The notes beneath the pieces were generated by a model. That model was not told the DNA's origin. It made no database searches and worked only from the letters and a program-made list of their open reading frames with translations. Shown here piece by piece: positions 711-24,462 of a DNA stretch of 24,462 bases. The stretch's first letter is position 1. Every line of letters begins with the position of its first letter. The DNA is from a virus: positions 1 through 24,462 of IMG/VR virus record IMGVR_UViG_3300025133_000577, one strand, 5' to 3'. Both the position numbers and the translations under genes were made by a program.

Positions 711-3122
711 ATGCAGATTAAGACAAATATGAGCAGTTCATTTCCTGACCAGGTAGTACCTGATGCTGAGAAAGCTACATGGGAATACGGGTTATCCGTA
801 GGTAGAGCTATTGAAGGTGAGTGGTTTAGAAACCCAACTAGTGCTGGATATAGATTTGCTTCAAATTACAATAATTTCCATAACCTAAGATTGTATGCTA
901 GGGGTGAACAAAATATTCAAAAATACAAAGATGAACTATCTATCAATGGTGATTTATCATATTTAAACTTAGATTGGAAACCAGTACCTATAATACCAAA
1001 ATTTGTAGATATAGTAGTTAATGGTATTTCTCAAAGAAATTATGAAATTAAAGCTTTTGCTCAAGATCCAGAATCTACTCAAAAGAAGACTGTATATGCA
1101 GAACGTATAATTAGGGATATTCAAATAGCTGAATATAATGCTGCTGTTAAAGAAACATGGGGCATTGATTTATCAGAATCTAAAAAAGGGGAAGATACAC
1201 CTAAGACGATGGATGAATTATCAGCTCATATGCAGTTAGATTATAAACAATCTATCGAGTTAGCTGAAGAGGAATTAATTAGTCAAATTTTAGATAAAAA
1301 TAAATATAATTTAACAAGGAAGAGATTAAACCAAGATTTAACTATCTTAGGTATAGGGTGTGTAAAAACTAGTTTTAATAAATCAGAAGGTATTTGTGTA
1401 GAATATGTAGATCCAGTTAATTTAGTTTATTCATATACAGAAGATCCAAACTTTGACGATTTGTATTATGTTGGTGAAGTTAAAAGTATTAGTATACCTG
1501 AATTAAAAAAGCGTTTTCCAAATATATCTCCAGAAGATGTGAAGGAGATTCAAAAATATCCTGGAAATACTAGTTATGCTAGAAACTGGAATGGTAGACA
1601 AGGTGATAATGCGGTACAAGTTTTATTTTTTGAATATAAAACTTATACTAATCAAGTTTTTAAAATAAAAGAAACTGCAGCAGGATTAGAAAAAGCATTA
1701 GAAAAACAAGATACATTTAATCCACCAGAAGCAGATACGTTTAAAAGAGTATCTAGATCTATTGAGGTATTATATACTGGAGCTAAAATATTGGGTCATA
1801 AAAAAATGTTAGAGTGGAAGTTAGCTCAAAACATGACGAGACCCATAGCTAATACTACTAAGGTCAATATGAACTATAATATCACAGCTCCTAGGATGTA
1901 TAAGGGTAAGATAGAATCTTTAGTTAGTAGAATAACTGGATTTGCTGATATGATACAATTAGCACATCTTAAACTACAACAAGTATTATCTAGGGTAGTT
2001 CCTGATGGTGTTTATTTAGATATGGATGGATTAGCTGAGGTTGATTTAGGTAATGGTACAAACTACAATCCTGCTGAAGCTTTAAATATGTATTTCCAAA
2101 CGGGTAGTATAGTTGGTAGATCTTTAACTCAAGACGGTGAAATGAATCGTGGAAAAGTACCTATTCAAGAATTACAATCATCTAGTGGTGGAGCTAAAAT
2201 ACAATCATTAATACAAACTTATCAGTATTATTTACAAATGATAAGAGATGTCACCGGACTTAATGAAGCTAGAGATGCTAGTACTCCAGATAAAAACGCG
2301 CTAGTGGGATTACAAAAACTAGCTGCTGCTAATTCAAACACTGCAACAAGACATATTTTACAAGCTGGCTTATATATTACTTTAAAAACATGTGAAAATA
2401 TTACATTAAGAGTAGGTGATGCTTTAATGTTTCCATTAACTAGAATGGCCTTACAAGATAGTATTTCAGTATACAATGTAGCAACATTAGATGAAATATC
2501 TACAGCTAGTTTACATGATTTTGGTATATTTTTAGAACTAGAACCTGATGAAGAAGAAAAAGCGTTGTTAGAACAAAATATTCAAATGGCTTTACAAACT
2601 CAATCAATAGATTTAGAAGATGCTATAGATATAAGGAATATTAATAATCTAAAACTTGCCAATGAATTACTAAAGAAAAGACGTAAGCAAAAGTTTAAAA
2701 GAGATCAACAAGCTCAACAAGCTAATATACAAGCGCAAGCACAAGCAAATGCAGAAGCTGCCGAAAGAGCGGCTATGGCAGAAGTTCAAAAGCAACAAAT
2801 ATTAACAGAATCTACTTTGCAAATAGAACAAGGTAAATCTCAATTTGCTATTCAAAAAGCACAACAAGAAGCTGAATTAAAAAAGCAATTAATGCAATTA
2901 GAGTTTGAATTTAACATGCAACTTACTAAAGCTCAATCTGAAAATAAAAGGTCAGATGAGGCTCAAAAAGAAGATAGAAAAGACGAAAGAACTAAAATTC
3001 AAGCAACACAACAAAGTGAACTAATATCTCAAAGAAAAAATGACTCTTTACCTGTAGATTTTGAATCCAAAGGATTTGATAATCTTGGTGGATTTGGTTT
3101 AGAGCAATTTGCTCCTAGATAA
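711..3122 (+). CDS. Portal protein
   Basis: 803 residues, forming the dodecameric ring at the capsid vertex through which DNA enters and leaves. Evidence is position directly after TerL (TAGATG, no gap), size in the range of podovirus portals (600-800 aa), an N-terminal mixed alpha/beta part with a long acidic/basic stem, and the block IRDVTGLNEARDAS near residues 511-524 followed by a helix with many Ala/Asn, resembling the stem-crown segment of podovirus and crAss-like portals. Residues about 650-780 are a Gln/Ala/Lys/Glu-rich coiled coil (KKRRKQKFKRDQQAQQ at its start), a plausible barrel extending into the capsid. An in-frame ATG at 729 (residue 7) is an alternative start; neither has a Shine-Dalgarno box. 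Family call is firm; the barrel role is inferred. Confidence 0.85.
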   Translation: MQIKTNMSSSFPDQVVPDAEKATWEYGLSVGRAIEGEWFRNPTSAGYRFASNYNNFHNLRLYARGEQNIQKYKDELSINGDLSYLNLDWKPVPIIPKFVDIVVNGISQRNYEIKAFAQDPESTQKKTVYAERIIRDIQIAEYNAAVKETWGIDLSESKKGEDTPKTMDELSAHMQLDYKQSIELAEEELISQILDKNKYNLTRKRLNQDLTILGIGCVKTSFNKSEGICVEYVDPVNLVYSYTEDPNFDDLYYVGEVKSISIPELKKRFPNISPEDVKEIQKYPGNTSYARNWNGRQGDNAVQVLFFEYKTYTNQVFKIKETAAGLEKALEKQDTFNPPEADTFKRVSRSIEVLYTGAKILGHKKMLEWKLAQNMTRPIANTTKVNMNYNITAPRMYKGKIESLVSRITGFADMIQLAHLKLQQVLSRVVPDGVYLDMDGLAEVDLGNGTNYNPAEALNMYFQTGSIVGRSLTQDGEMNRGKVPIQELQSSSGGAKIQSLIQTYQYYLQMIRDVTGLNEARDASTPDKNALVGLQKLAAANSNTATRHILQAGLYITLKTCENITLRVGDALMFPLTRMALQDSISVYNVATLDEISTASLHDFGIFLELEPDEEEKALLEQNIQMALQTQSIDLEDAIDIRNINNLKLANELLKKRRKQKFKRDQQAQQANIQAQAQANAEAAERAAMAEVQKQQILTESTLQIEQGKSQFAIQKAQQEAELKKQLMQLEFEFNMQLTKAQSENKRSDEAQKEDRKDERTKIQATQQSELISQRKNDSLPVDFESKGFDNLGGFGLEQFAPR

Positions 3123-3131
3123 GTTCTATTT

Positions 3132-3157
3132 AATTATATAATATCATATCATGAAAA
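3132..3157 (+). promoter_or_regulatory. A/T leader shared with the 258-aa gene (copy 1)
   Basis: The 19 bases before the ATG at 3151 plus the first 7 coding bases match the leader of the gene at 6233 in 24 of 26 positions, with differences at only two positions. It contains no purine-rich ribosome site. It may be a translation initiation leader or part of a promoter; the low complexity of A/T sequence means chance similarity is possible. Confidence 0.35.
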
Positions 3158-4311
3158 AAGAAAAAGAAGTAAAAGAAGAAGGCTCTTTTAAAATAAAAAA
3201 GAAACCTTCTATGAAAAAACTAAACAAAAAAGACGGACCTATAAAGGTTGATTTATCTAAAAACAAAAATAAGGTTGAAGAACCTGTAAAAGTTGAAGAT
3301 GTTAAGAAGGAGATTGTTGAAGTTAAAGAAGAGAAAGTTGCTAAAGTTGAAGACAAAGCAATTGAGAAGGTTGAAGAAGCAGTTACAAAAGTTGAAGAAA
3401 AACAAGCTGAAACTCCAAATATTAAAGAAATTAAAGAAGAGGAATTTGAACCAATAGGTGAAACTACTGTAGAAAAACCTATATCAGTCCCACAAATGGA
3501 ATTACCAGAAAATATAGAAAAACTTGTAGAGTTTATGAAAGATACTGGTGGTGATATGAAAGATTACATAAGATTAAATGCGGATTATTCTACTGTAGAT
3601 GATAACGTGTTATTAAAAGAATATTATACTCAGACAAAACAACATCTAAACGATGAAGAAATTAAATTTATTATAGATGATAAATTTACATGGGATGAAG
3701 AGTACGACGAAGAGCGAGAAGTTAAAAAGAAAAAACTCGCTTTCAAGGAAGAAGTTGCTGAAGCCACGAACTTTTTAGAAGGTTTAAAAAGTAAGTATTA
3801 TGAAGATCTTAAGTTAAGACCTTCAGTTACTAACGACCAGAAAAAAGCCACTGACTTCTTCAATAGATACAACAAAGAACAAGAGGTAGTTAAACAACGT
3901 CACGAACAGTTTAAAAACACCACTAAAGATTATTTCACTAAAGATTTCAAAGGTTTTGATTTCAATCTTGGTGAAAAGAAGTTTAGATATGGTGTGAGTA
4001 ATCCTAGCGACGTTGCAGCTAATCAATCTGATTTGAACGATTTTGTTAAGAAGTTCTTAGATGAAAAAGGAAATATATCAGATTATAAAGGCTATCACAA
4101 AGCTATCTATGCTGCACGAAATGCTGATACAATAGCAAAACACTTTTACGATCAAGGTAAAGCAGATGCTGTTAAAGACATCACTGCTAAGTCTAAAAAC
4201 ATAAGTAATGAACCTAGAGATAATGCTCCAGGGGATGTATTTATAAACGGTTTTAAAGTGAAAGCTATATCAGGTGCAAATGGTTCTAAGTTAAAATTTA
4301 AACGTAAATAA
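3151..4311 (+). CDS. Scaffold-like capsid assembly protein
   Basis: 386 residues lying between portal and major capsid protein, the usual slot for a scaffolding protein that guides capsid assembly. Residues 1-105 are an extremely charged Lys/Glu/Val region with repeated VE/VK heptad-like units (for example KVEEPVKVEDVKKEIVEVK), probably disordered or coiled coil. Residues about 125-330 are hydrophilic and helical (ENIEKLVEFMKDTGG, later FNRYNKEQEVVKQRHEQF). The C-terminus is basic (KLKFKRK), fitting the capsid-binding tail common in scaffolds. No protease motif is seen, so it does not look like a protease-scaffold fusion. No sequence family is recognised; the role is inferred from position and composition. 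Confidence 0.6.
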   Translation: MKKEKEVKEEGSFKIKKKPSMKKLNKKDGPIKVDLSKNKNKVEEPVKVEDVKKEIVEVKEEKVAKVEDKAIEKVEEAVTKVEEKQAETPNIKEIKEEEFEPIGETTVEKPISVPQMELPENIEKLVEFMKDTGGDMKDYIRLNADYSTVDDNVLLKEYYTQTKQHLNDEEIKFIIDDKFTWDEEYDEEREVKKKKLAFKEEVAEATNFLEGLKSKYYEDLKLRPSVTNDQKKATDFFNRYNKEQEVVKQRHEQFKNTTKDYFTKDFKGFDFNLGEKKFRYGVSNPSDVAANQSDLNDFVKKFLDEKGNISDYKGYHKAIYAARNADTIAKHFYDQGKADAVKDITAKSKNISNEPRDNAPGDVFINGFKVKAISGANGSKLKFKRK

Positions 4312-17231: not shown

Positions 17232-20200
17232 ATGAATCCAGAAGCATTAGAATATAGTTACGGGTTATTTCAAAATGACGGATATGACGGTAGTTTAGAA
17301 GAGTATCAAGAGTTAATCTCTACTAATCAAGAAGCTAAAGACTATTCGTTTAATTTGTTTTCAGCAGATGGATATAATGGTTCTCTTGAAGATTTTTCAA
17401 ATCTTATAACAAGTGAAATAGTACCTGAAGCAGGAGCTCCAGTTGCAGGAATAGATAAAACTGAATCTGTCTTTTACGAAGATGTAGAAATTGAAGAACC
17501 TGCACATTCAGAAGAAGAAATCAAAGAAGCTAATATATGGGTTACTCCCCCTATGATACAAGCTGCAAATAAAAAACTTAAATGGAATGAAGATATTTCA
17601 GAGGATAACTACGATGCATGGGTTGGAGATAATGCTGATGGTAAAGTAGTTGAAGCTTGGGATTTATATAAAAGTGAAAACCTAGGAATTGAAAAAGAAT
17701 CTGGTCAAGAAGCTATTACTATAGAAGGTTTAAGTGAAGCTACGTTGGAAGACATTGATCCAATAATTAATAGAGAATATGAAAGTAGTGATTTAAAATC
17801 AACTACTTTAAATGATTATATAAGTGAAAAAGTTGATAAAATATCTAAAGCTCAAGATGAAGAATTTATTAAGTTATTAGGTAAACCTATAGAAGAATTT
17901 GCAGTTAAAGATAGTAAAGGAAATATAACATATGATATTCCTGAAGATAAAATTGAAGAATTTAATAATATTGTCAAAAAATATCAACCACAATGGGATA
18001 ATATAGACATAGATAGTAGAAAAGCTACGATGATTTTTGATAGATATAATGAATTAGCAGATGAAGCTAATAAATTAGCAAAGTCTATTAGTAAAATAGA
18101 TCCTATAAAGGAAATTGGTGAAGATACTACAGGGACGGTAGTTGAAAAAGTTGATCCAATTAGTGGTGAAATTATGGAATCATATGATTATGATGAATTT
18201 AAATATCGACTTGTTACTCTAGGAGAGTACAAAAGTGTACAAGATGTTGTAAAAGCGTATAATATATCTACTACAGAAGCTGAATACAGAATCACTAACA
18301 TGCTTGAAGAGGCGGAAGTTGAATCAGATCCAGATAAATGGTGGCATTATCTTACTGATAAAAAATATAGAAAGAAAATAGATGATCAAAGACAAAGGCG
18401 TCGAAGTTATAAATGGTGGAAACGATTATTAGATAATTCATCTAGTGAAGAGATATTTACAATGGAGCAAAGCAAAGGTAAAGAATATTTAGATACTTTT
18501 TTACCTGACGGTTTTACAACTGTAGAAACTGGGGCAATTCATGTTGGAATACCAGGAACTCGCGATTTTGTAACAGTTATAAACAACAGAACTGGTAATA
18601 GTATTGAAATAGGATTTGATTTTAGTAGAGATGATAAAAGAAGTATTAGAGCAGAAAGAACTAAATTAACTACTTTTTTAACGCACAATACTACTAAATT
18701 ACAACTAGAGGAATCGCGTTATAGATCTAAAACTGCTTATCAAAAATTTTATAAAGCAGAAACAACTTCTGTAGCAGATGGAGGATTTAATGTAGATGAT
18801 TTAAAACTAGCTTCATATAATAAATATTCTACTGATGTAAATCCTGATTTATTTAATCCTAAAATTACTAAAGCTAAATTAGAAGGAATCAAAGCCGGAG
18901 GAGGATATGCTGATAAGTACCTTGCTAGTGATGTTGCAGAGATGGGACTTGATGCTTCACAACTAGTTCAAGGAGAAGCATACAATGTTGAATTTGATGA
19001 CAATGTTGTTGATGCTCAGAAAAAAGCATTAATGATATTAGCTGCTGAAAGACAAAAAAATGGAGTGAAAAATCAAGAAACTCCACCATTAACTATTGGA
19101 TTAGATTTTGATACTAATGTAGTTAAAGGTTTAAATATTACACAAACGCAAGTTGATAATTTAGCTAGAGAAATATTAGGTGATAAAGATTGGGGTATGG
19201 TTCAACAACGTGCTTTTGAAAATTGGGTTGAAACAGGTAGATGGAAGAAAGAGGAAGATAAAGCTCAAATGGGTGTTCTTTTTAAAACTATGATAGATAA
19301 GACTGAAAGTACTAGAAAAGCTATGTTATCAAGCGCTTGGTTATCAGAAAAAACAAGGGAGCTAGAAGAATATACAAGCAATGTTAGTAATACATTTTAT
19401 TCTGAAACGTACAAGAAATTTAAAGAAGACGAAAGTATAGTATATCCAATTGCTCCAGGAGAAGGATATTATGAGGTTGATGGAAGAAAGATACCATCTA
19501 AAATAATTGATGGTATGCGAGCAGAATATAAAGCTCTAAATTTAGTTTATACTAATTATGACAACGCGGCAATGGAAGCAGAATGGGCGGTTGATCATGT
19601 TAATGATTTTGATGATAAATGGAAAATATATAAACATAATTATAACGACGCTGAACAAGCGGGCACTGCTTTTACATTAGGAGTAGCAGATATATTCCTT
19701 GGCACTGCTCATGGAGCTTATAAATTACTTTCATTACCTGGAGATGCAATAAAAATGCTAGTTGGTATGGATACTCAAGATCCTATAGATAAAGCTATGG
19801 CTAATTGGTACAACTTTAAAGATAGAGAACAATCTCAATTTGCTCCAAAAGTAAAATATGGAGAATGGACAAATTCATTGGAGTTTGGTAGTTACTGGAT
19901 GAATACTGGAGCAGAACAATTACCTATTTATGCAGCTATGATGGCAGCTAATCTTCTTGCCCCAGGAAGTACCGCAGCAGTTGCGTTTGTAGCTGGAGGT
20001 TCTACTTATTCTACTACAGATCATCAAATGAGAATGAATGGTGATGAAGATTTATCAGAAGGAGATATATTTTTTCGTGGTCTTTTGTCAGGTATAAATG
20101 AATTTGGTTTCACTTACTTATTTGGTTCACCTTTAGTTAAAAAAGGAGGTGATATTTTAAGAGGTAAAGGAGGTAATCCTTTTAAAAGATTTAGGACAGG

Positions 20201-23200
20201 TAAAATAGATTATCTAAGAGGTCAAACTCCATTAATGGTTGAAGGTTTTCTAATGGAAGCAACGGAAGAAGGTTTGATTATGGGGTTTGATAATATTATT
20301 CATGGTAGATCTATCTTAGAGAATGTCCAAGAATCAGCAGTTGTTGGAGGTGTTTTTGGGTTAAATATGATAATGGCACCATCGTTAGGTGTTATGATGT
20401 CTAGAAATTTTACAAATGGAGACGCACTAAATACTTTGGCAAAAAATACTAAAACGTTAGCTAATCTTTATAATGAAAACGATGTAATTAGTGATGAAAT
20501 TTTAAAGTTGCAATATGATAATATAAATTTAAGTGGTAAAACTAATCAAGGAAAAAGAAATCAAAATACAGAAAGAATAAAACGTTTAAATCTAAAACTT
20601 GATAATAACAATCAGATAAAAGAAGAGCTTACTATTGAGAATTCAGAAACACTTGATGGAGTACAAGATAATTTAATAAATCAAGGATTAGGTAAAAACG
20701 CTTATGATAATTTTAATCTAAGTTCTGTAGAAGCATTCAAAATACAACAACAAGTTAATGATATTAAAAGTGATCCTGAGGTAGATGCAAAAGAGAAAAA
20801 AGAATTAATTGATATATTAACTTCTAAACTTAATAAAATAAGATCTAGTTTAGAAAAATTTAAATCTAAAGAGCTATGGGGACATGGATATTATTCTTTA
20901 CTAGCAAGTTCATTTGTGAGCAAGAAAAATAAAAAACGTATAAATGAAATTAGAGCAGAAGCAACTACGCATATATTAGAGAAAAAAGGTAGTGAGCATG
21001 AAATAAGTCAAAAAGAAATAGATGAAGAAGGTGCTAAAATATATATAAAACAAGAAATAGAACAGCAGTTAACTAGTGATAAAAAATTAAATAACGATTT
21101 AAAATCAGCAGATACTAAAGAAGATGGAGTTAAAGTTATCACTGACCATTATGATTCTTTAATTGCAGAGGCGGAAAAAAATAATAATCTAAAACAAAAA
21201 GAAAAATTAGAAGAACATAGAGATAATACTATTAATAGTATAAATGATGGTTCAGTTAATGGAGTTTATTTATTAAATGGAGATCTGGATAGTGATTTTA
21301 AAGAAACATATGTTGCTATTGTGGAAAACATGGTAAATAATGAAACTACTACAACGGGTATTCATGAAACCGCGCACGCGTGGAGCGTTAGATTAATGAA
21401 AGAAAATCCTAAAAAATTTAACGATTTTGGAGAAGCAGTAACTAAGTTTTTGCAAGAAAAGCATTCAGATGTTTGGGAGTTTATTACAACAGAAAATGTA
21501 GGTATATATAATGAAGATGGCACAATAGATTATGAAGAAGTAATATCTTCTTTTGCTGAACAAGTAGCTGCTAATAAAATAAAATTAAATAACAAAGGGT
21601 TATGGCCAGCTATTCTTGGCAAAGCGTGGAATATTGGTCTTAAAGAATCTGGAGGACAAGATATTTCTTTTAGAGGACAAAATGATATTATTGCTTATTT
21701 TGAAAATGTATTAAAAGATGTTGTAACTGATAAAAAAATAGATTCTGACACGAAAGACGTATCGCAAAAAGATATAGTTAAAACTGATAAAACTATAAAA
21801 GAAAAAAAATCTCAATCAAGAGCAAAGAAAAAAGCACAAAAAGATTTAAAACTAGAGAAAAAAGAAGTTGGAGAACAAATAAATGAAGTAGCGGGTGATA
21901 TTAAAAGTGCTAATGAGTTAGCAGCAAAGTTGTATAAAGAAATGTTAGATCCTAATGCAACAGGTAAAACAGCTAGATTATTAGATAATGTAATAGATAA
22001 TCAATTAAGGATTAATGGAGTAGATGTAGCCGCAGGTAATGTTTATAATAAGCCTTTAAAAGAATTTAGACAAGAAGTTAAAGATGAACTTTTGATAGGA
22101 ACTATAATGCGTTTTGATCCTAAAAAAGCTATTAAAAAAGAGGGTGCATATGATCCAGGTGGATTTATTGTTTCTGAATTAGTTAATTATAGGATTGGAG
22201 ATGTATTAAATAAATATAGACCTAAGTCAGGAGAAGTGTCAATTGATGTTCCTTTAGAATCTGGTAAAACTAGAGAATTTGTTGATGAAAGTATAGATAT
22301 TGAAGGTGCAATTGATGAAAAACCTACAGTAACTCCAAGATCTAAAATAAAAAAGCAAGCTCCAGATTTAGTAACTCAAGAATTAGAAGATTTAGTTGAG
22401 ACAGCAGTATTAGAAATTGAAGCAGGAGTAAGACCTGATGTAGATGATAAAGTATATAAATCTTTTATACAAGAAGTATTAGAAGGTAAACTTACTAATG
22501 AAATCAAAGATAGATTTGGTAAAGGCGCAGAGTATGATAATTTTATTAAGAAATTTGCTCCAGTTTTAAAGAAATCAATGCCACCACAATTTTTTGTTAA
22601 AATTGAATCTCAAATAAAACCAGAAGATAGACAATTTACATTTCCCCCTAAAAGATTAACTACACAAGCAGAAATAGATAAAGCTACTAGAAGTGATCAA
22701 GTATATGTAGAAAACACTGCACAAGGTGTTAACATGTATAAATTAAAAGATTTTTCAAGTAGAGATTTAGCTAATTTCTTGTTACCTCCGGCAATTCATC
22801 CTAAAACTGGTAAGAAAAGTGGTAGAAAAGGAACTATAAAAACATCTGTAGCTAAGTCTGTTGGAGTAGAACTAGGTAAAGATATGATACCATCTGTTAT
22901 GGAGGGGTTAGGCAAAAGTCAGAAAGAAATAGCTATAGCTAGTGTGAAAGCACAACGACAACCTACTATCAAGTTTCATAAATCTGGAATGCAAGATATG
23001 GTTAGAAAAATGGGTATAGAACCATTAACTATAAAAGGTGGAAAAAAAGTGTATTCTTTGTATGATTTTACTGGAAAAGATAAAGATAAAAATAAAACAA
23101 TAGAATTATCAGATAAAGAAGCATTTAAGAAATGGATTATAGAAGTTGTACCTAGATATTTACCAATAGAATTTATTACTAAATCATCTTTAGTTGGTTA

Positions 23201-24462
23201 TGGAAGTAAAGCAAAATACTTCTATTTTACATCTGATGAAGTTACACAAATAAAAAAAGAAGCTGCGAAAAATCAAAAAGAATTTACTCCAGAAGAGCGC
23301 GCCGCGATTAAAGAAATGGTTAGTGGACTTGGAGATTACAAAAGTGGTATTTGGGCTAATATAAAATATTTAGTAGGTACAGCAGAATATAAAAAGAGAG
23401 TTGATCTTAACTATAAAGGATTAGGTATTGTATTTAATAAGTTTCAAGATATGATAGCAGCTAATCCAAACAGTGTGAAGTTTATTGTTGGTATGTTAGA
23501 AACAGGTTCTCAATCCAGTAGTCATTGGTTAAGAAATGCTGCTATGCCTAGAGGATACGATAGATTAGTAGGAGCAAAATGGAGTGGAGAAACTCATGTA
23601 AAAGAACATGTATGGCCTCAAAATATGTTTGCAGAATTTATGTTGGGAGTTGCTATTAAAGGTGCATCAAAAGGAAATATAAATATCGATAAAGTAATGC
23701 CATTTGTTAAAGACAATTATTTTCAAATGTTAATTACATTAAAAGATGACAATAAATTAAAAGATACTAAGCCCAAATATGGAATAAAATACAATCTTCA
23801 AGCGGTTCCACCTAAAGAGTTTTTAGATAGTTTACAGGAAGCTTTTAAAACAGGAGACTTAACTAAAGCAAAAAGTATTTGGACAAGATATGTTAATTCT
23901 TTAGTTAATAATAATGATGGAGGATTTAACTTAAATAATTTAATTTTTGATGGAAAATCTGTAGCCTCTATATTTAATGTAGATGTAAGTAAAGAGTATA
24001 GAAATAATTCTAAAGTCATTGAATTACAGAATAAACTTATTGAAGCTCAACTATTAGGTCAAGATGTAAAACCTAAAAAAGTAATGTATTTTTTCACTAG
24101 AGATTTAGCTACTCCAGAAGAAAACGCATTAAAAGAGCGTAAAAAAGAAGTTGATGGAAATAAAGTTATATCTAAATTTAGTCAATCAGCTAATGGTAAT
24201 AACGTTAATAGAGAAAGTCAAATATTAGATAAAGCTTTACAAATTGCTCGAGATCCTAATGCTCCTGTTAAAAAGATTAGAGTATTTGATTTTGATGATA
24301 CATTAGCTAGAACTAAAAGTAATGTTATATATAATAAACCTAATACAACTGGTAAACCATCGTCAAATTTAAAGGCAATAGTAATGGCAGGTGGACCTGG
24401 TAGTGGAAAATCTACTGTTATAAAAGGTCTAGGACTACAAAAGCAAGGATACAAAGTAGTCA
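17232..24462 (+). CDS. Giant polyvalent virion protein, 3' partial (at least 2410 residues)
   Basis: The frame is open without a stop from ATG 17232 to the right edge, so the true length exceeds 2410 residues; it starts 3 bases after the previous stop in TATATG context. Order of visible parts: two tandem 30-residue repeats (8-61); a long acidic/helical region (about 90-800); hydrophobic or Gly/Ala-rich segments at about 812-840, 897-925 and 1037-1056; a Lys/Glu-rich coiled region to about 1340; an HExxH zincin-like site at 1378-1382; further unassigned charged domains to about 2000; a His/Trp/Pro-rich block at 2094-2130; and a HAD motif I plus P-loop at 2353-2395. The multi-domain layout, with peptidase-, phosphatase- and kinase-like motifs on one chain, fits 'polyvalent' proteins of marine phages thought to be ejected with DNA. 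Alternatives are a tape-measure-like protein or unusual ejection protein. No polymerase motif is seen in this part. Confidence 0.75.
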   Translation, partial: MNPEALEYSYGLFQNDGYDGSLEEYQELISTNQEAKDYSFNLFSADGYNGSLEDFSNLITSEIVPEAGAPVAGIDKTESVFYEDVEIEEPAHSEEEIKEANIWVTPPMIQAANKKLKWNEDISEDNYDAWVGDNADGKVVEAWDLYKSENLGIEKESGQEAITIEGLSEATLEDIDPIINREYESSDLKSTTLNDYISEKVDKISKAQDEEFIKLLGKPIEEFAVKDSKGNITYDIPEDKIEEFNNIVKKYQPQWDNIDIDSRKATMIFDRYNELADEANKLAKSISKIDPIKEIGEDTTGTVVEKVDPISGEIMESYDYDEFKYRLVTLGEYKSVQDVVKAYNISTTEAEYRITNMLEEAEVESDPDKWWHYLTDKKYRKKIDDQRQRRRSYKWWKRLLDNSSSEEIFTMEQSKGKEYLDTFLPDGFTTVETGAIHVGIPGTRDFVTVINNRTGNSIEIGFDFSRDDKRSIRAERTKLTTFLTHNTTKLQLEESRYRSKTAYQKFYKAETTSVADGGFNVDDLKLASYNKYSTDVNPDLFNPKITKAKLEGIKAGGGYADKYLASDVAEMGLDASQLVQGEAYNVEFDDNVVDAQKKALMILAAERQKNGVKNQETPPLTIGLDFDTNVVKGLNITQTQVDNLAREILGDKDWGMVQQRAFENWVETGRWKKEEDKAQMGVLFKTMIDKTESTRKAMLSSAWLSEKTRELEEYTSNVSNTFYSETYKKFKEDESIVYPIAPGEGYYEVDGRKIPSKIIDGMRAEYKALNLVYTNYDNAAMEAEWAVDHVNDFDDKWKIYKHNYNDAEQAGTAFTLGVADIFLGTAHGAYKLLSLPGDAIKMLVGMDTQDPIDKAMANWYNFKDREQSQFAPKVKYGEWTNSLEFGSYWMNTGAEQLPIYAAMMAANLLAPGSTAAVAFVAGGSTYSTTDHQMRMNGDEDLSEGDIFFRGLLSGINEFGFTYLFGSPLVKKGGDILRGKGGNPFKRFRTGKIDYLRGQTPLMVEGFLMEATEEGLIMGFDNIIHGRSILENVQESAVVGGVFGLNMIMAPSLGVMMSRNFTNGDALNTLAKNTKTLANLYNENDVISDEILKLQYDNINLSGKTNQGKRNQNTERIKRLNLKLDNNNQIKEELTIENSETLDGVQDNLINQGLGKNAYDNFNLSSVEAFKIQQQVNDIKSDPEVDAKEKKELIDILTSKLNKIRSSLEKFKSKELWGHGYYSLLASSFVSKKNKKRINEIRAEATTHILEKKGSEHEISQKEIDEEGAKIYIKQEIEQQLTSDKKLNNDLKSADTKEDGVKVITDHYDSLIAEAEKNNNLKQKEKLEEHRDNTINSINDGSVNGVYLLNGDLDSDFKETYVAIVENMVNNETTTTGIHETAHAWSVRLMKENPKKFNDFGEAVTKFLQEKHSDVWEFITTENVGIYNEDGTIDYEEVISSFAEQVAANKIKLNNKGLWPAILGKAWNIGLKESGGQDISFRGQNDIIAYFENVLKDVVTDKKIDSDTKDVSQKDIVKTDKTIKEKKSQSRAKKKAQKDLKLEKKEVGEQINEVAGDIKSANELAAKLYKEMLDPNATGKTARLLDNVIDNQLRINGVDVAAGNVYNKPLKEFRQEVKDELLIGTIMRFDPKKAIKKEGAYDPGGFIVSELVNYRIGDVLNKYRPKSGEVSIDVPLESGKTREFVDESIDIEGAIDEKPTVTPRSKIKKQAPDLVTQELEDLVETAVLEIEAGVRPDVDDKVYKSFIQEVLEGKLTNEIKDRFGKGAEYDNFIKKFAPVLKKSMPPQFFVKIESQIKPEDRQFTFPPKRLTTQAEIDKATRSDQVYVENTAQGVNMYKLKDFSSRDLANFLLPPAIHPKTGKKSGRKGTIKTSVAKSVGVELGKDMIPSVMEGLGKSQKEIAIASVKAQRQPTIKFHKSGMQDMVRKMGIEPLTIKGGKKVYSLYDFTGKDKDKNKTIELSDKEAFKKWIIEVVPRYLPIEFITKSSLVGYGSKAKYFYFTSDEVTQIKKEAAKNQKEFTPEERAAIKEMVSGLGDYKSGIWANIKYLVGTAEYKKRVDLNYKGLGIVFNKFQDMIAANPNSVKFIVGMLETGSQSSSHWLRNAAMPRGYDRLVGAKWSGETHVKEHVWPQNMFAEFMLGVAIKGASKGNINIDKVMPFVKDNYFQMLITLKDDNKLKDTKPKYGIKYNLQAVPPKEFLDSLQEAFKTGDLTKAKSIWTRYVNSLVNNNDGGFNLNNLIFDGKSVASIFNVDVSKEYRNNSKVIELQNKLIEAQLLGQDVKPKKVMYFFTRDLATPEENALKERKKEVDGNKVISKFSQSANGNNVNRESQILDKALQIARDPNAPVKKIRVFDFDDTLARTKSNVIYNKPNTTGKPSSNLKAIVMAGGPGSGKSTVIKGLGLQKQGYKVV
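17253..17414 (+). repeat. Two tandem 30-residue repeats at the start of the giant protein
   Basis: Residues 8-31 (YSYGLFQNDGYDGSLEEY and onward) and 38-61 (YSFNLFSADGYNGSLEDF and onward) are identical in 13 of 24 positions with a spacing of 30 residues. The shared core is LF..DGY.GSLE(E/D)(Y/F)..LI. The DNA copies (17253-17324 and 17343-17414) have diverged, so the protein pattern is what is kept. Possible role: a docking or virion-packaging tag; unproven. Confidence 0.85.
19665..20400 (+). other. Hydrophobic segments inside the giant protein
   Basis: Three stretches stand out of a very hydrophilic protein: residues about 812-840 (AFTLGVADIFLGTAHGAYKL), 897-925 (IYAAMMAANLLAPGSTAAVA, then AFVAGG) and 1037-1056 (VVGGVFGLNMIMAPSLGVMM). 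They are Ala/Gly-rich, amphipathic to hydrophobic and separated by charged linkers. They could insert in a host membrane during DNA ejection. None is a clear signal peptide. Confidence 0.5.
21363..21560 (+). other. Zincin-like metallopeptidase site (HETAH) in the giant protein
   Basis: GIHETAHAWSVRLMKE carries HExxH at residues 1378-1382 (His1378, Glu1379, His1382), preceded by a polar Thr-rich strand. About 55-60 residues downstream is DYEEVISSFAEQVA, with Glu1435/1436 and Glu1443 as possible third zinc ligand (gluzincin-style). Family members in phage polyvalent proteins usually read HExxHA, as here. Activity and target are unknown. Confidence 0.6.
24273..24462 (+). other. HAD motif I followed by P-loop in the giant protein
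   Basis: KIRVFDFDDTLARTKS places DxDxT (Asp2353, Asp2355, Thr2357) after a hydrophobic strand, the classic HAD motif I in which the first Asp is the nucleophile. Thirty residues on, AIVMAGGPGSGKSTVIKG gives a Walker A loop (2387-2395; Lys2393, Ser2394) after its own strand. The rest of both domains lies beyond the window. The P-loop resembles zeta-toxin or small nucleotide/polynucleotide kinases. Confidence 0.75.

Follow-up and report, generated by a model that had tools for sequence, protein, structure and literature searches.

A P-loop kinase inserted at the flap turn of a HAD phosphatase domain, a candidate socket for exchangeable domains in a giant phage protein

The end of a viral contig raises the question how a P-loop kinase can start almost directly behind the first catalytic motif of a HAD phosphatase domain. 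The window, i.e., the whole stretch of DNA that was analysed, is the entire virus record of 24462 bases and ends within the open frame of a giant protein (Table 1). In this protein, HAD motif I, DFDDT (residues 2353–2357, positions 24288–24302), and the Walker A motif GGPGSGKST (residues 2387–2395) lie exactly where an earlier note on this DNA had located them. They are separated by 29 residues, which is below the size of a HAD domain; the note had likewise judged the spacing too short for a whole HAD domain, and the spacing recurs in independent contigs. Behind the Walker A motif, 15 residues remain up to the window end. Since the record stops inside the kinase, the continuation of the giant protein is read from its relatives, and the remainder of the HAD domain is known from them as well, the window's own lying past the contig end.

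Table 1. Coordinates of the giant protein gene, its features, and the giant proteins of the L002 contig.
Feature	Position	Strand	Remark
Giant polyvalent-type protein	17232–24461	+	At least 2410 aa; frame still open, 3′ end lost at contig end
Zincin-like HExxH motif (GIHETAH), mid giant protein	21357–21377	+	Assigned by motif alone
HAD strand S1 and motif I (KKIRVFDFDDT)	24270–24302	+	Matches L002 model strand 2–7
HAD flap β-hairpin, first strand (~SNVIYNKP)	24318–24341	+	Aligns to L002 model strand 19–24
Linker at flap turn, insertion point	24342–24374	+	Insert versus empty comparison among relatives
Inserted P-loop kinase, 5′ part to contig end	24366–24461	+	Kinase HMM; ~190 aa in relatives
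Walker A (GGPGSGKST)	24390–24416	+	Read from translation
L002-contig giant proteins	L337:2574–12944; G001:C1:19289–29860 (in L338)	+; minus	Paralogue pair or chimeric contig

The IMG/VR locus L002 is 94% identical to the window across 64 amino acids spanning both motifs. Its open frame encodes, in this order, HAD motif I, the kinase of ~190 amino acids and HAD motifs II, III and IV (FDFSEFNKV...VFVLTAR...AKSGW...YFADD), and the order is identical in L003–L006. When these sequences are aligned with the many loci having the HAD domain without a kinase, the kinase appears as a single clean block. The earlier note had considered either a kinase lodged between motifs I and II, in the cap position of the HAD domain, or a HAD domain reduced to a remnant. 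The alignments and the L002 model place the kinase at the cap site, while the HAD domain of the relatives is complete, with motifs II–IV following the kinase in the part that corresponds to the region beyond the window end. Independently of these alignments, a HAD profile was applied to 44 records. It matched contiguously in all 22 plain records; among the 22 nested records, a split match (1–28, then ~19/28–162) within a single open frame was found in 16, and six were matched by the second HAD part alone. Altogether, at least 184 distinct HAD sequences were found, i.e., at least 134 plain, at least 43 with the kinase, at least four with an ART-like domain and at least three with a segment of ~46 amino acids, numbers that are not prevalences, as several queries included the kinase or the ART-like domain and motif I was obligatory for entry.

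The position of the window's kinase at a contig end, and a second copy on the contig of L002 that could be chimeric, might suggest an artefact of assembly, or a motif that arose by chance. The probability of this explanation is negligible. Both motifs stand in identical register in dozens of independent contigs, so the pair is not a matter of chance, and at least 43 distinct nested sequences, on independent contigs and under purifying selection, rule the artefact out.

The L002 segment, as modelled with AlphaFold (AF2; pLDDT 91.3, pTM 0.80), contains two complete folds. The arms of the flap hairpin are formed by strands 19–24 and 223–228, with the kinase between them in sequence. The DFDDT strand, for which the earlier note had also envisaged a place within the kinase fold, belongs to the separate HAD fold in this model. 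At the DNA level, the junctions can be read from pairs with and without insert (L253/L090 and L150/L106): inserts begin directly after the YTMP codons, stop just ahead of the codons with which the second flap strand begins and take the place of a flap turn of 4–5 codons (DGTT). What makes a domain a C1 cap is its insertion midway along the flap β-hairpin (PMC8069645), and in the predicted structure the kinase is inserted at precisely this place, which would put the nested protein in the C1-capped class. The likeness to C1-capped HAD enzymes, including P-type ATPases, lies in the presence of a distinct domain in the flap hairpin (PMC8069645), whereas the difference is that the insert is an apparently complete enzyme that is exchangeable among relatives. 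The pairing of the flap strands, and a cap-like shielding of the HAD active site that the kinase may provide, are deduced from the topology of the model.

Judged by its motifs and predicted fold, the outer domain is a HAD domain belonging to no named family. Motif I, present in the window, is invariant across 50 aligned relatives, as are T283 (motif II), K320 (motif III) and D339/D340 (motif IV), before which the window ends. Among the matches listed, every kinase form (43/43), ART form (4/4) and helical form (3/3) retains the TAR and DD motifs, a tally for which motif I was required. Sequence matches to described families are weak (DUF2608, 4e-6; HAD, 0.01; PNK3P, 0.011, the latter for one member), and the HAD profile has no meaningful match to the PDB by sequence. 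The models show a Rossmannoid fold with a flap hairpin, and structure matches in the PDB include HAD phosphatases, with weak E-values of 0.01–0.2. Median dN/dS values of 0.19 for the HAD domain and 0.17 for the kinase (across ~140 pairs) indicate purifying selection on both. Moreover, the nested kinases retain the Gly and Lys of the P-loop and the NxD, DGTG and RNxxRxER motifs. From the kept catalytic residues and the dN/dS values, both domains look functional.

Regarding the kinase, residues 2379–2410 of the window match positions 1–32 of the kinase HMM (i-Evalue 1.9e-14). In Pfam, the generic family AAA_33 ranks first (2e-18); Zeta_toxin matches at 3e-12, with 46.9 bits against a Pfam cut-off of 22.3, AAA_33 scoring higher. 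Searched against the PDB, the kinase profile finds Pnk from Clostridium thermocellum (2e-5), T4 Pnk (3e-4), zeta (4e-4) and PezT (1e-3). In a structure search with targets of unequal length, solved PNKs (C. thermocellum Pnk) reach target TM values of 0.73–0.75 and the zeta toxin ~0.5. In addition, a polynucleotide kinase family of PHROGs matches the kinase (1e-12). The acceptor site of T4 Pnk is an Asp-x-x-Arg, which we take to be D35/R38. The Asp is conserved in the nested kinases, but the position of the Arg is occupied by Leu or Ile. As both PNKs and zeta toxins match, and the acceptor Asp aligns but the Arg does not, the domain is, by sequence, a P-loop kinase of the PNK/zeta type.

These similarities have to be weighed against the proposal of the earlier note that the protein could repair or modify the ends of host RNA or DNA. 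A rearranged polynucleotide kinase-phosphatase would add the 5′ phosphate and remove the 3′ phosphate at broken ends of host tRNA or phage DNA, the two activities being coupled. As in T4 Pnkp and bacterial Pnkp, a P-loop kinase whose fold is near that of PNKs is found in one polypeptide with, as in T4, a HAD domain, so that both fold types are the same as in T4 Pnkp. PNKs also hold the top profile ranks, narrowly over zeta, the PHROG match is to polynucleotide kinases, and the Walker A motif, the catalytic Asp and the Arg residues of the RNxxR lid have their counterparts in T4 Pnk. However, T4 Pnkp is a tandem of kinase and then phosphatase, whereas here the kinase is nested in the HAD domain and the parts are separable: most relatives have the HAD domain without kinase, ART-like domains can fill the same slot, and L015 and L239 carry the kinase without HAD domain. 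The HAD domain itself resembles the PNK 3′-phosphatase weakly, by the single PNK3P match given above. An RNA ligase as end-repair partner is unsupported, PF09414 being present in just 2/44 records. T4-like end-healing is thus weakened by the separate occurrence of the parts, the missing acceptor Arg, the ART-like domains in the slot and the rarity of RNA ligase; we consider it quite unlikely, and the protein is not demonstrably a T4-type PNKP. Of the earlier interpretation as a whole, the nesting was borne out, with a HAD domain that is complete, and the function stays a proposal.

Alternatively, the kinase could be a zeta-type toxin that phosphorylates UDP-GlcNAc-like sugars and weakens the wall at entry, its position within the HAD domain being incidental. 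With zeta toxin and PezT, which are UDP-GlcNAc kinases, it shares the Zeta_toxin match, the P-loop, an Asp after strand 2 and a [DE]GT motif, and one nested relative is called UDP-N-acetylglucosamine kinase in UniProt, a single-domain name. Zeta-like kinases are, moreover, among the domains of polyvalent proteins in the text of Iyer et al. (2017; PMC5512222). Unlike zeta toxin and PezT, though, the nested kinase lies within a HAD domain, PNK structures fit equally or better, and the top Pfam match is a generic one. The ART-like domains in the same slot favour a general socket over coincidence, which leaves the toxin explanation as a whole rather unlikely, with a sugar kinase of the zeta kind still plausible. 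A further proposal, in which kinase and HAD domain exert opposing activities on one shared substrate and form a built-in switch, would suit two complete active sites that are physically nested, but it is very improbable given that either domain is found without the other.

The flap turn is not reserved for kinases. An ART-like insert of ~130–140 amino acids is present at the same turn in L129/L253, L206/L259, L254, L255 and L260, of which four distinct forms were counted, the fifth, L254, being an incomplete sequence. The insert matches ART-PolyVal (PF18760) weakly (E 0.006), and a model of an ART-like form (pLDDT 84, pTM 0.61) gives structure matches to HAD and ART folds. It differs from ART-PolyVal in scoring below the Pfam cut-off and in sitting in the HAD flap slot. 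A third insert, found in L240, L396 and L402, is a short helical, conserved segment of ~46 amino acids (DMLDIVARRKFKKEFENLP...) in the same slot. As relatives have another enzyme-like domain or nothing at the same spot, the loop would act like a socket. The domain order, the catalytic motifs, the exact insertion at one turn and the alternative states of this turn are direct observations in the relatives. ART-like domains also occur in large open frames without HAD match, in L256, L257 and L258 (at 3001–3405).

In a HAD tree of 160 columns and moderate support, a single clade of kinase forms was rejected (p-AU 0.0001), as was a single clade of ART forms (p-AU 0.00016). The nested kinases themselves form one clade, separate from the kinases that stand alone in T4-like marine phages (SH-aLRT 100). 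L015 and L239, which lack the HAD domain, are placed within this clade, and the linker residues of L239 resemble those of the nested form. The window shows an exchange of its own. Compared with both G001 giant proteins, its nucleotide identity rises from ~50% to 95–98% within residues ~2340–2375, and amounts to 78–89% from there to the contig end. The simplest reading of these sequence comparisons is that domains have repeatedly recombined into one permissive loop. The alternative is that few old insertions were followed by many losses, against which the HAD tree weighs incompletely.

Similar kinases exist outside this setting. In T4-like marine phages (L021, L047, L056 and others), a broadly related kinase forms the C-terminal domain of a protein that opens with a nucleotidyltransferase-like motif, FGRFNPPTxGH. 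Others stand alone, and a similar kinase is found in Pelagibacter phage HTVC008M.

The surrounding protein resembles the polyvalent proteins of phages. In the text of Iyer et al. (2017), these are virion-packaged, include ARTs besides the kinases mentioned above, have zincin-like peptidases as a stated theme and are proposed to enter along with the DNA (PMC5512222). The giant protein is likewise a very large, putative multidomain protein with several unrelated enzymatic domains, i.e., the HAD domain, an HExxH motif, a zeta-like kinase and, in relatives, ART-like domains, and its gene lies in the structural and packaging block: in the window, genes for TerL, portal and capsid are followed by other virion proteins and then by the giant gene. 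The open frames of the relatives measure 1.6–4.7 kaa, the majority exceeding 2.5 kaa. The idea of the earlier note that the protein is ejected fits this analogy. The giant protein differs from the polyvalent proteins in having a HAD domain and a fixed nesting slot, neither of which is described in the text of Iyer et al. (2017; PMC5512222).

Carriers of the giant protein are uncultured phages, mainly marine. The nearest named isolates by the capsid protein of the window are Maribacter phage Panino, Flavobacterium elemo phages and Cellulophaga phages, so the hosts are probably Flavobacteriia. MW202828 and Panino, which have the capsid protein in common with the window, possess giant proteins without HAD or kinase match. 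PHROGs holds no family matching the giant protein, and the plain HAD domain, searched directly together with its downstream flank, has no match in a collection of phage isolates. The structural genes upstream of the giant gene are 71–78% identical to those of G001 in DNA, although the giant protein itself, over its first ~2045 residues (positions 17232–23370), has no blastp match to either giant protein of G001. Two full giant proteins, of 3457 and 3524 aa, are found on the 50-kb contig of L002, and in each the HAD domain harbours a nested kinase.

Taken as a whole, we regard it as likely that the locus encodes a HAD phosphatase within a giant polyvalent phage protein, that a complete PNK/zeta-type kinase is inserted at its flap turn and that this turn is a socket for exchangeable effectors. 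The protein would be packaged and delivered together with the DNA. The HAD domain would serve as a constant phosphatase scaffold that retains its own activity beside the inserted kinase, the flap turn as a permissive socket in which recombination swaps self-contained effector domains. As payload, the kinase may phosphorylate a hydroxyl group of the host, or of a nucleic acid or nucleotide, early in infection. Cap domains tune the specificity of HAD enzymes, and the insert might similarly screen or shape access to the HAD active site. More tentative, and in our estimate somewhat doubtful, is the extended form of this reading, in which phages repeatedly swap complete enzyme domains in one HAD loop of an injected protein and the insert, itself catalytic, modulates the phosphatase in the manner of a cap.

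The components as such are already known. A literature search on kinases nested in HAD domains yielded no precedent, and neither the nested architecture nor the slot with multiple inserts was found described in the literature searched. If the socket reading is true, one cap position at which whole unrelated enzyme domains alternate among close relatives documents, in natural sequences, how modules are swapped within a folded enzyme, and the known domains of phage polyvalent proteins are extended by a HAD phosphatase. The same HAD domain, either empty, with kinase or with ART-like insert, then provides a testable set for the roles of caps and for the targets of early-infection effectors.

Lastly, some giant proteins carry an additional segment of ~130–170 amino acids, with no assigned family, behind the HAD domain. 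It is found in L002, ~110–290 residues past the HAD domain, and in L032, and is flanked by a repeated VKGKxQQAKxKFS linker.
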